Assembly: GCF_037094685.1 (NCBI RefSeq)
Contig: NZ_CP146614.1
Coordinates: 3,410,001 to 3,474,000 of the forward strand
Reading direction: 5' to 3'
DNA: 64,000 bases
From: Massilia sp. METH4
GTDB taxonomy: Bacteria > Pseudomonadota > Gammaproteobacteria > Burkholderiales > Burkholderiaceae_D
The notes beneath the pieces were generated by a model. That model was given only the letters and a program-made list of their open reading frames with translations, did no database searches and had not been told where the DNA came from. Each line of letters opens with the position of its first letter. Within the stretch, counting starts at the first letter, position 1. This document shows positions 45,508 through 48,918 of the stretch, in pieces. The translations under genes and the position numbers were made by a program.

Positions 45508-46872
45508 TTACCGGTCCAACTGCGGCTGGACGTTCGACACCGTCAGGTCGGCGCTGCCTTCGGCCAGGCGCACATTGTATTTCCGGCGCGGTTGCAGCTG
45601 GTCCGGCGAGCGCAGGATCGCGCCACGGCTGTCGGTGACGATCGCGTAGCCACGCTCCAGCGTGCGCTGCGGATTGAGCAGTTCGAGCTGCGCGGCCAGC
45701 GCGCCCAGCGCCTCGCGCTCGCGCCGCACGCACGCGGCGATGTTGACGGCGCAGCGATGCTGCAACGCAGCCAGGTGGGCACGCACGGCGCGCGTGTCGG
45801 GGCGCTGCGCGGCCAGCCGGCCAGCCAGCTTGTCCAGCGTGTGGCGCGACTGGTTCAAGGGCGCGCGGTTGGCGTGCATCAGCGCCGTCGACAGCGCCAG
45901 CAGGGCCAGGCGCTGCTGGCGGATGCGCGCCGTGGGGCTTAGCAGGCGGCGGCTGTGGTGGTCCAGCGTCTGCGCGGCGTCGTTCAGCGTGCGTCGCATT
46001 GCGCGGCGCAGGTCGGTGGCGTCGGCGCGCAGCGAAGCGAGCCAGTCGCCGCGCGGCGTGGCGGCCAGCTCGGCGGCCGCCGTGGGCGTGGCGGCGCGCA
46101 GGTCGGCGGCGAAATCGGCAATGGTGAAATCGGTCTCGTGGCCCACGCCGGAAATCACCGGCATGCTGCATTCCGCGATCGCCCAGGCCACCATCTCGTC
46201 ATTGAAGCACCACAGGTCTTCCATGCTGCCGCCGCCGCGGCAGACGATCAGCACGTCGCACTCGGCCCGCTTCGATGCCGTGCGGATCGCCCGGGCGATC
46301 TGCTCGCCGGCGAACTGCCCCTGGACGAGGGTCGGGTAGAGCACCACGTTCACGTGCGGCGCGCGGCGACGCAAGGCGATCAGCACGTCGCGCAGCGCCG
46401 CCGCCTGAGGGCTCGTGACGATGCCGATGGTGCGCGCGAACAGGGGCAGGGCGCGCTTCCTGTCCTCGTCGAACAGGCCGGCCGCGGACAGCTTCTCCTT
46501 CAGCCGCATGAACGCCTCGAACAGCGCCCCCACGCCGGCGCGGCGGATCGCTTCGACATTGATCTGATAGTCGCCGCGCGGACCATACAGCGTGACGAGC
46601 GCGCGGACTTCGACCTTGTCGCCTTCGCGCGGCACGAAGCCGGCGTATTGCGCGCGGCCGCGGAACATCACGGCGCGCACCTGGGCCGCATCGTCCTTCA
46701 GCGTGAAGTACCAGTGGCCCGACGCGGCACGCGTGAAATTGGAGATTTCCCCAGCGATCCAGGTCAGTGGAAAACTACGCTCGAGCAGCCGCGATACGGC
46801 CTGGTTCAGCGCGCTGACGGTGATCACGGCGTTCTGGCCGGGGGCGGAATCGGGGCGGTCGAAGGTCGGCAT
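45508..46872 (-). CDS. xseA: Exodeoxyribonuclease VII large subunit XseA
   Basis: The 454-residue protein has the N-terminal OB-fold ([27 protein letters not shown]), the catalytic domain with [15 protein letters not shown], the [12 protein letters not shown] motif and [13 protein letters not shown], and a long helical C-terminal part. It degrades single-stranded DNA with XseB. ATG 46872 is preferred; a GTG at 46887 would extend it by five residues and lie within the first degenerate DnaA-box-like element. The large repeat array begins directly upstream. Confidence 0.94.
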
Positions 46873-47228
46873 CAGGGAACTGTCCACAGAGTCATCAAGC
46901 GGTCATGCTTATGTCATATCTCGCCCAAAACAGCAAGGTGTTTTTCCAAGATACTGATTTATAAAGATAAAACCGGCTGCTTCATTCGTGTGCATCGTAA
47001 GAATATTCTTACAAATCAAGGACTTCGCTGAGGCCGGTCATTCTTACGCACAAAGATATCCACAGAATTTGTGGGGAACGTGAACAAGTGGCGGAAGCAG
47101 TGCCGAAAATTTCCGCAGGAAAAGTTTCTCTTTGTAAATCAGGTACTTGGCATGCCTGACTCGCGCTTCCCCACAATTTTATCCACAGAAGTTGTGCAGA
47201 ACCGCACGGCCATCCGGCGCCCCTCCAG

Positions 47229-47263
47229 CAGGCAACGAGAAGGGATCGGGCTGCCTGTTTTTT
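47229..47263 (+). terminator. Terminator-like hairpin inside repeat array
   Basis: CAGGCA (47229-47234) pairs with TGCCTG (47252-47257) and is followed by TTTTTT. The loop of 17 bases is long for an intrinsic terminator. Confidence 0.45.
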
Positions 47264-47380
47264 GTGCGTGGGCATTTTTTCCTTTTAAATCAACGTGCTT
47301 GGAAGGTCGTGTCACCCTTGCGCACAATATTGTCCACAGTTTTTGTGCAGAAGGACGACCGATGGCAAGACGGATGAGGA

Positions 47381-47413
47381 AAACGGGCAGTCTCGCGTCG
47401 CTGCCCGTTTTTT
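47381..47413 (+). terminator. Intrinsic terminator inside repeat array
   Basis: AAACGGGCAG (47381-47390) pairs perfectly with CTGCCCGTTT (47401-47410), followed by more T. No protein gene ends nearby, so it suggests short transcripts arising within the array. Confidence 0.8.
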
Positions 47414-47879
47414 GAGCTCGGCTGATTTTTCCTGTGAAATCAACGCTCTTCCACCGTCTCCGGCGCCTTGCCAACAGTCTTATCAACAATTACTGTGCAG
47501 AAGCACTGCTGGGTAGAACCGCATATTTGGCTGTACTGCAAGTTTTTTGCGCATTGAAATAATTTCCTTTCGGATCAAGGACTTGACGAGGTCATGGGCC
47601 CCTTGCCAACAATTTTGTCCACAGAAATTGTTGAGAATGCCGCCGCAGCGGATGCCGAGGTGGTTGCACAAAAAATGGGCTTCGCCATAAATTCTATTGA
47701 AATCAATGACTTGTGCGAGACTTCGCGCCTTGCGCACATTCTTTTCCACAGAATTTGTGAAGAACACGCGTCGGCGCGCCTGGGCCGCGCGCTTGCACCG
47801 GTCCACACTTGCCGCGATGCCGGCAACACGCTACATTGCGCGTCTGCGCCTGTGTCGGGCTTTCATAAAGGAGTAAGTT

Positions 47880-48485
47880 TTGCTCGCCATCTTCCAAGCT
47901 GCCGGCTGGCCGATCTGGTTGCTGCTGATCGCTTCCATCGTCGCCACCGCCTTGATCATCGAACGCCTGATGACCTTGCGCCGCGCCCGGATCCTGCCGC
48001 CTAACCTGCTCGACGAAGTGGTGGGCGTCTACCGCAGCGGCAACATCACGCCGGATATCCTGGGCAAGCTGGAAACGAGTTCGCCGCTGGGCGTGGTGCT
48101 GTCGGCCGCGCTGCGCAATGTGAACGCGCCGCGCGAGGTGATGAAGGAATCGATCGAGGAAGCGGGCAGCGGTGTCGCGCACACGCTGGAGCGTTTCCTG
48201 ACGACGCTGGGCACGATCGCCACGCTGGCGCCGCTGATGGGGCTGTTCGGCACCGTGGTCGGCATGATCGAGATCTTCGGCGCCCAAAATCCCACCGGTG
48301 CCAATCCGGCGCAGCTGGCGCACGGCATTTCCGTGGCGCTGTACAACACCGGCTTCGGCCTGGCCATCGCCATGCCCACGCTGGTGTTCTACCGCCACTT
48401 CCGCGCGCTGGTCGACAGCTTCGTGATCCAGATGGAGCAGCAGGCCGTGCGCTTCGTCGACGTCGTGCACAACTCCCGTCAGTAA
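47880..48485 (+). CDS. exbB: ExbB/TolQ-family proton channel protein
   Basis: The 201-residue protein has three membrane helices: residues 4-24, about 118-140 and about 155-178. TLGTIATLAPLMGLFGTVVGMIEIF is the ExbB/MotA signature. With ExbD it forms the proton channel that powers TonB-dependent uptake or similar transport. The start is TTG at 47880, with AAGGAG six bases before it; no ATG is available at the right place. It is 10 bases before exbD, and both lead the lpxK-kdsB-adk cluster, as is common in Burkholderiales. Confidence 0.92.
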   Translation: MLAIFQAAGWPIWLLLIASIVATALIIERLMTLRRARILPPNLLDEVVGVYRSGNITPDILGKLETSSPLGVVLSAALRNVNAPREVMKESIEEAGSGVAHTLERFLTTLGTIATLAPLMGLFGTVVGMIEIFGAQNPTGANPAQLAHGISVALYNTGFGLAIAMPTLVFYRHFRALVDSFVIQMEQQAVRFVDVVHNSRQ

Positions 48486-48495
48486 GGGCAGGGCG

Positions 48496-48918
48496 ATGAA
48501 TTTCCGCAAGGGCCAGCGCCGGGAAGACCCGGAGATCAACCTGATCCCGTTCATCGACGTGCTGCTGGTGATCCTGATCTTCCTGATGGTGTCGACCACC
48601 TACAGCAAGTTCACGGAACTGCAGATCACGCTGCCCACCGCCGATGCGCAGAAGGCGACCCAGCAGCCGGACCAGATCGACGTGACCGTGGATGCGAAAG
48701 GCAACTACACGATCAACGGCGAGCCGGTATCGTTCCGCGACGTGGCCGGCCTGGCCTCGGTGCTGAAGGCGGCCGCGCAGCCGGGCAGCGACCCGGTGGT
48801 GGTCGTCAATGCCGACCAGTTCGCCATGCACCAGATGGTGGTCAACGTGATGGAAGCGGCGCGCATCGCCGGCTTCGGCAAGTTGACGTTCGCGGCGCAG
48901 ACGGGGAGCGGGAAGTAG
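48496..48918 (+). CDS. exbD: ExbD/TolR-family biopolymer transport protein
   Basis: A 140-residue protein with one membrane helix near the N-terminus. INLIPFIDVLLVILIFLM contains the conserved membrane Asp that carries protons in ExbD/TolR. The rest is the periplasmic domain with the typical GEPVSFRDV region. It pairs with ExbB, encoded just upstream. It starts at ATG 48496 and ends before the nested inverted repeat at 48940. Confidence 0.92.
   Translation: MNFRKGQRREDPEINLIPFIDVLLVILIFLMVSTTYSKFTELQITLPTADAQKATQQPDQIDVTVDAKGNYTINGEPVSFRDVAGLASVLKAAAQPGSDPVVVVNADQFAMHQMVVNVMEAARIAGFGKLTFAAQTGSGK

Follow-up and report, generated by a model that had tools for sequence, protein, structure and literature searches.

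The window analysed here is a stretch of 64,000 nucleotides from the chromosome of Massilia sp. METH4, in which the intergenic gap between xseA and exbB (46888..47879) holds the whole of a six-unit array of DnaA-box-like sequences. The initial annotation had placed six nonamer cores in this setting, which is upheld by Pfam, at 47056, 47179, 47330, 47480, 47615 and 47742; these starts are correct, the cores share one direction, and their spacing (123, 151, 150, 135 and 127 bp) lies within the claimed range of 123-151 bp. The cores had been described as exact or with one mismatch, and only that at 47179 is exact, the other five each carrying one mismatch. A degenerate match at 46880, CTGTCCACA, indeed has two mismatches and overlaps the called start of xseA. 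As was also reported, dnaA is not local, being found about 2 Mb away at 1460042 of the same chromosome (G000:C1:1460042).

A five-site module in six tandem units

The repeat had been recorded as a series of single boxes, and these are present, but the real unit is a larger, five-site module: each core is followed at 14 bp by an inverted box and preceded at 12 bp by a further forward box, both of which had been overlooked. With the core (box II) set at 0, each unit has a Fis-like site at -77, an IHF consensus-like site at -42, box III at -12 and the inverted box I at +14, the frame of unit 6 being shifted (IHF at -41, Fis at -76). The box order and the offsets -12/0/+14, with box I inverted, hold in six of six units. 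The letters of boxes III and I are partly degenerate, and several boxes are weak in this genome, with one to three mismatches in box III and one mismatch in box II in five of the six units. The features are as follows (mm, mismatch).

45508..46887, minus strand: xseA, exonuclease VII large subunit, left neighbour (Pfam PF02601)
46947..46959, minus strand: outer IHF-like site of unit 1, CAAGATACTGATT, 1 mm to reversed WATCAANNNNTTR, at about -110
46979..47078, plus strand: unit 1; Fis-like 46979-46993 (1 mm), IHF 47014-47026 (1 mm), box III 47044-47052 TTACGCACA, box II 47056-47064 ATATCCACA, inverted box I 47070-47078
47102..47201, plus strand: unit 2; Fis-like 47102-47116 (2 mm), IHF 47137-47149 (1 mm), box III 47167-47175, box II 47179-47187 TTATCCACA (exact), inverted box I 47193-47201
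47253..47352, plus strand: unit 3; Fis-like 47253-47267 (1 mm), IHF 47288-47300 (2 mm), box III 47318-47326, box II 47330-47338 TTGTCCACA, inverted box I 47344-47352
47403..47502, plus strand: unit 4; Fis-like 47403-47417 (1 mm), IHF 47438-47450 (2 mm), box III 47468-47476, box II 47480-47488 TTATCAACA, inverted box I 47494-47502
47538..47637, plus strand: unit 5; Fis-like 47538-47552 (2 mm), IHF 47573-47585 (1 mm), box III 47603-47611, box II 47615-47623 TTGTCCACA, inverted box I 47629-47637
47666..47764, plus strand: unit 6; Fis 47666-47680 GCACAAAAAATGGGC (exact), IHF 47701-47713 AATCAATGACTTG (exact), box III 47730-47738, box II 47742-47750 TTTTCCACA, inverted box I 47756-47764
47832..47837, plus strand: TACATT, possible -10 element of an exbB promoter as read from the sequence, downstream of the array
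47880..48485, plus strand: exbB, right neighbour (Pfam PF01618)
48496-48918: exbD, downstream of exbB (Pfam PF02472)

The IHF site lies on the box III side of the core, with at most one mismatch in four of the six window units and two in the other two. A Fis-like site is present in every unit at -77 or -76 with zero to two mismatches (at most one in four of the six). The outer IHF-like site at about -110 is absent from units 2-6, where at least four mismatches are found; many relatives whose gaps have one or two units carry it at the same position. The genome encodes IHF alpha, Hda and a Fis homologue, the best Fis match falling under the NCBI cut-off (86.7 of 99 bits).

Counted alone, the boxes do not stand out. 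With at most one mismatch, TTATNCACA occurs 17 times in the window against 11.5 expected, a number that 12 of 100 shuffles reach, and genome-wide the exact nonamer has 29 matches against 54 for the reversed control, that is, no enrichment; eleven of the 17 window matches fall within 721 bp. The signal lies in the arrangement of the boxes: the plain nonamer count is near chance, and clustering and layout are far from it.

Conservation in place and helical phasing

One scan for relatives of exbB returned 80 loci, of which 73 had xseA upstream and were kept, giving 74 gaps with the window; seven were dropped because xseA was not found upstream (L029, L038, L049, L061, L077, L092, L097). Gap edges were taken from tblastn, which probably makes some of the gaps (L056, L069) overlong. 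Three or more cores are present in 40 gaps, one or two in 22 and none in 12, and all 40 gaps with three or more units belong, by name, to Oxalobacteraceae, with arrays of three to nine modules over up to 1.5 kb. By eye, seven of the 12 gaps without a scored core retain two of the three boxes and five have no element (three Herbaspirillum, L052 and L093). In the three Herbaspirillum loci (L074, L076, L080) the gap is short, 173-221 bp, with no DnaA box at up to one mismatch. The array is thus kept between xseA and exbB in relatives, the comparison that had been proposed for it, and the expectation that none of the candidate elements would be found here fails at the level of the clade, because the element occupies xseA-exbB through most of the sampled family and occurs there in one or two copies in other Burkholderiales.

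The layout itself stands out in these gaps. Of 323 arrangements counted over the 74 gaps, -12/+14 comes first with 255 instances; the runner-up has 63, and the median arrangement 1. At a looser threshold, 282 core matches (both strands) were found in 57,977 bases of gap DNA, against none in 417,922 bases of flanks, which are mostly coding, and 0.2 per shuffled replicate. This loose scan alone is not specific, because over 73 gaps the -12/+12 layout still scores 110 against 252 for -12/+14, and because one E. coli datA site and a second site in rppH-mutH also pass. Within the METH4 genome, the core pattern at up to one mismatch has eight matches and its reversed control none; the loose scan of 60 stretches (1.2 Mb, some picked for containing known sites) gave 13 matches in five samples and none in the other 55, the array accounting for six of the 13.

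The flanking sites are conserved to different degrees. An IHF consensus match with at most one mismatch lies at -44..-39 in 165 of the 235 array units with enough flank. Gaps that have one or two cores supply 22 units, of which four have the match there; reversed IHF matches in these units number 13 at their four most frequent positions, from -112 to -108. The exact Fis consensus occurs at -77 in 24 of 235 array units against a mean of 0.39 per position, while Fis matches with up to one mismatch are uninformative, because positions +4 and -10 score higher from the box letters alone. Elsewhere in the gap, a TACATTCTGC-like element lies within the last 140 nt in 34 of 73 relatives, and 12 of the 73 have TGTCCACAG somewhere between -40 and +60 relative to the start of xseA, which may be compared with CTGTCCACA at 46880-46888 of the window.

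The spacing between units is mostly phased to the helix. When the same interval of the same array plan is compared between genomes, its length often differs by about 11, 21 or 32 bp: among the eight arrays of the window's group, interval 2 measures 107, 118, 150-151 or 162-163 bp, and Janthinobacterium arrays read 158-149(150)-160-170-136-150 against 158-159-171-181-136-150. With values within 3 bp merged, positional orthologues yield 35 spacing differences, of which 29 come within 2 bp of a whole multiple of 10.5 and six do not fit (59.5, 6, 14, 6, 34 and 6). The mean cosine of the 35 differences peaks at 10.5 bp (0.63), a value reached by none of 5000 jittered sets; the resulting P value is only a guide, because grouping was manual and covered 33 of 40 arrays (all but L032, L034, L041, L046, L054, L056 and L072) and the genomes are related. 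This comparison supersedes the periodicity of the raw spacings (peak at 10.9 bp, R 0.46; 0.41 at 10.5). For E. coli DARS2, a passage of the published shift experiments reports that a 5-bp shift was worse than a 10-bp one in two of three comparisons, namely when IHF was moved towards Fis or Fis towards IHF, and that moving the IHF site towards the core was harmful at both 5 and 10 bp (PMC4245941). The spacing steps of the array are in keeping with those experiments.

Likeness to DARS and the rival readings

The core of each unit has the layout of the E. coli DARS cores. In E. coli K-12 we take bioD-uvrB to be DARS1 and rppH-mutH to be DARS2, from their positions together with the published description of the core and not from published letters. 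The cores lie at 708+, 722- and 734- in bioD-uvrB (L109) and at 636+, 650- and 662- in rppH-mutH (L108); DARS1 in uvrB-ybhK and DARS2 in mutH-ygdQ or ygdQ-ygdR were also considered and rejected, those gaps containing no core. In both cores box II stands at +14 and box III at +26 from box I, on the strand opposite to it, which read from the other strand gives III at -12, II at 0 and inverted I at +14, so that the layout equals that of the array unit. DARS1 therefore shares core offsets and orientation with the unit, and DARS2 is in addition alike in its intergenic place and its IHF site(s) on the box III side, and may be alike in its Fis sites. A review, in the part concerned with DARS, likewise gives box I as opposite to boxes II and III, with the same spacing in DARS1 and DARS2 (PMC5742627), and DARS2 is described as activated by IHF and Fis in a portion of PMC4245941. 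The regulatory half is not identical, because the repeated inner IHF site is at -42 here and E. coli DARS2 has one near -98. Moreover, E. coli DARS2 is a single module whereas six stand in tandem here, and the neighbours differ, rppH/mutH for DARS2 and bioD/uvrB for DARS1 against xseA/exbB for the array.

The position of the array in the chromosome was read from a KOPS-type motif, GGGNAGGG, counted per strand in 60 samples of 20 kb. The majority strand switches twice, once within about 1.62-1.68 Mb and once within 5.18-5.50 Mb; to the left of the first switch, the samples at 1.42 and 1.48 Mb are contrary to the trend. A dif-like site is found at 5.287 Mb. The use of dnaA as the exact origin was discarded, the switch lying about 0.16-0.22 Mb away, so that oriC may not adjoin dnaA in this genome. 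At 3.457 Mb, the array lies at 0.50 of the replichore with the origin at 1.65 Mb (0.52 with the origin at dnaA), about 1.8 Mb from the KOPS switch and about 0.26 of genome length from the origin; the corresponding value for E. coli DARS2 is similar, 0.21, as read from a statement on yafJ in one part of PMC5010248. In relatives, with the origin taken as dnaA, arrays lie at about 0.57 (G006) and 0.65 (G275) and a single core at about 0.78 (G095); three array genomes thus fall at 0.50-0.65, and with G095 at about 0.78 a mid-replichore position is not universal among relatives.

The initial annotation had left a datA-like locus, a DARS-like element and a secondary origin unranked. DARS is favoured by the geometry of the three boxes, by the IHF and Fis-like sites and by the location at mid-replichore, with datA fitting less well and a secondary origin disfavoured. 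We consider it probable, from these sequence features, that the locus is a tandem, helically phased array of six DARS2-like modules that recharge ADP-DnaA under the control of IHF and Fis. Binding of DnaA, IHF and Fis, release of ADP and cooperation between modules are what we infer from the module. ADP-DnaA would bind boxes III-II-I, the inverted box I setting two DnaA molecules head-to-head, an arrangement that, in a passage of PMC8682772, promotes ADP release. Bending of the DNA by IHF and Fis would then let ADP leave, and the freed DnaA would take ATP. Helically phased repeats could allow neighbouring modules to stack in one large complex, which might give a stronger or more switch-like rise in ATP-DnaA, and a place midway along the replichore would fix the dosage of the array with respect to oriC, an argument already made for E. 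coli DARS2. The probable source of the array is a single ancestral module, which is still seen at xseA-exbB in other Burkholderiales. A bolder version, in which up to nine modules in helical register form a cooperative machine that recharges DnaA in bulk, the array having evolved by tandem growth of one module and its unit number tuning initiation timing across the family, would amount to a new DnaA-control architecture and is offered as a tentative proposal that may well not hold.

The main alternative is DnaA titration or a datA-like locus, in which DnaA is soaked up or IHF bending between same-direction boxes triggers ATP hydrolysis. In datA, according to part of a review, the essential boxes 2, 3 and 7 share direction and an IHF site lies between boxes 2 and 3 (PMC5742627); the six strong boxes of the array are likewise co-directional with an IHF-like site between successive ones. 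In E. coli datA, too, a strong box (slice position 106) is preceded at a distance of 12 bp by a weak forward box (position 94), a site that passes the loose scan, and tandem boxes in number would titrate DnaA in any case. This reading fits less well because the conserved third box of the array is inverted at +14, as in DARS, so that boxes II and III alone follow the datA rule of shared direction, whereas the inverted box of datA is +12 from its partner (268 and 280). In addition, datA lies near oriC and, as a section of the same review states, loses its function when moved to ter in rich medium (PMC5742627), while the array is at about 0.50 of the replichore. We judge titration or a datA-like role unlikely. 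The two readings differ in what deletion of the array would do, more initiations being predicted for datA or titration and fewer for DARS. Chromosomal DnaA-box clusters of B. subtilis and Streptomyces coelicolor, which can be likened to the array by description, repress untimely initiation according to part of PMC5742627.

Alternatively, DnaA might act through the array to regulate exbB-exbD and the genes that follow, or xseA, and so tie their transcription to replication. The array fills the divergent gap and ends 115 bp before the called exbB start, and DnaA regulates promoters in E. coli, as one passage of PMC5742627 notes; but an array of three to nine phased modules, up to 1.5 kb long, is more than a promoter usually needs, the TACATT element is present (by eye) in the three Herbaspirillum loci without an array, and the same core layout occurs between priA and hemE and beside a Ku gene, all of which makes this role improbable.

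We consider it highly improbable that the units encode a family of small RNAs in tandem, each made up of a 5' hairpin and a terminator. Units 2 and 3 do fold into a hairpin with a terminator-like stem and T run downstream of it (the latter at window 47225-47264 and 47380-47415), unit 3 folds better than shuffles (z -2.17), and 18 of 193 spacers over all gaps are terminator-like, although the contrast of 18 with 0 in the control is overstated because a plain letter shuffle breaks T runs. Some of these stems may be due to the Fis-type site, whose T-run is flanked by GC arms. Apart from unit 3, no unit folds clearly better than its shuffles (z -1.48 to 0.50), Rfam has no match for the units as an sRNA family, and helically phased spacing is not expected for RNAs. 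The arms of the hairpin consist of the CACA/TGTG termini of boxes III and I; pairing of the arm columns over 258 units is little above shuffles (z -0.4 to 3.0), which gives no covarying stem, and the columns just inside the arms (-3/+13 and -2/+12) are complementary in only 29% and 38%. A scan for sigma-70 promoters and terminators gave nothing above shuffles.

Clustering of DnaA boxes in a gap whose GC is below that of the surrounding genome (0.33-0.65 in relatives' gaps, 0.63-0.70 in the window) would suit a secondary replication origin, but such an origin is scarcely credible between xseA and exbB with KOPS polarity constant across the array, the + strand exceeding the - strand in 27 of 27 samples of 20 kb from 1.80 to 5.16 Mb.

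Distribution of the core and significance

The exact core pattern, CACA N3 TTNTNCACA N5 TGTG, was found in 224 of 300 sampled Burkholderiales genomes, with one reversed-control match in the 300, and in 119 of 149 genomes of the class, with no reversed-control match seen. In 29 other matching genomes, read at one locus each, the core lies at xseA-exbB in 17 (two identified from xseA alone), at priA-hemE in three and elsewhere in nine. The 17 xseA-exbB loci span five families, three of them being in the window's own family, to which all three priA-hemE loci belong. The presence of the core in many genomes and at varied loci indicates that the layout is widespread, while tandem xseA-exbB arrays occur, among the loci read, only in Oxalobacteraceae.

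The METH4 genome has further cores, two at priA-hemE, one beside the Ku gene at 4.766 Mb and one at 6.314 Mb. The priA-hemE gap (G000:C1:1553038-1553600; L011, L021), some 0.1 Mb from the inferred origin, contains two DARS-type cores as well as IHF-like sites, and a core is found at the same locus in three further genomes of the family (L141, L145 and L146). A separate cluster at G000:C1:1833728-1834362 (L022) has four exact TTATCCACA boxes in 635 bp, set in two similar AT-rich blocks, followed by a gene that is presumably nitropropane-dioxygenase-like; the sample containing it has two loose core matches, and it may represent a further DnaA site or belong to the origin region. In other genomes, a core pair about 2.5 kb apart lies near an IS1595-type transposase gene (L143; G249:C7:258228 and 260763) and a pair of similar distance at G055:C1:4202553/4205070, and core-layout matches adjoin a gyrase-B-type gene (L126) and a TrwC relaxase gene (L130) or fall between lpxK and a dnaB-type helicase gene (L131).

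The DARS2 core is described as conserved specifically in gamma-proteobacteria related to E. coli in part of PMC4245941, and in beta or gamma in a passage of a review (PMC5742627). In the open-access literature of PMC, we found no report of a DnaA-reactivating sequence in betaproteobacteria or Burkholderiales, of a tandem DARS or DnaA-box array, or of DnaA in connection with xseA-exbB; broader open-access searches gave no such report by title among the matches listed. The DARS work seen was in E. coli, where these sites set the rise in ATP-DnaA that triggers replication.

Kept in place in relatives, the array suggests an unrecognised form of replication timing control. If the reading as DARS2-like modules is true, DARS-type control would extend across Burkholderiales at a recurring xseA-exbB locus in five sampled families, with a second DARS-type locus, priA-hemE, inside the window's own family. 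Evolution would then have performed a natural spacing experiment, in which modules were mostly shifted by whole helical turns, and the arrays of varied size would offer a ready dose series for relating DARS strength to initiation timing.
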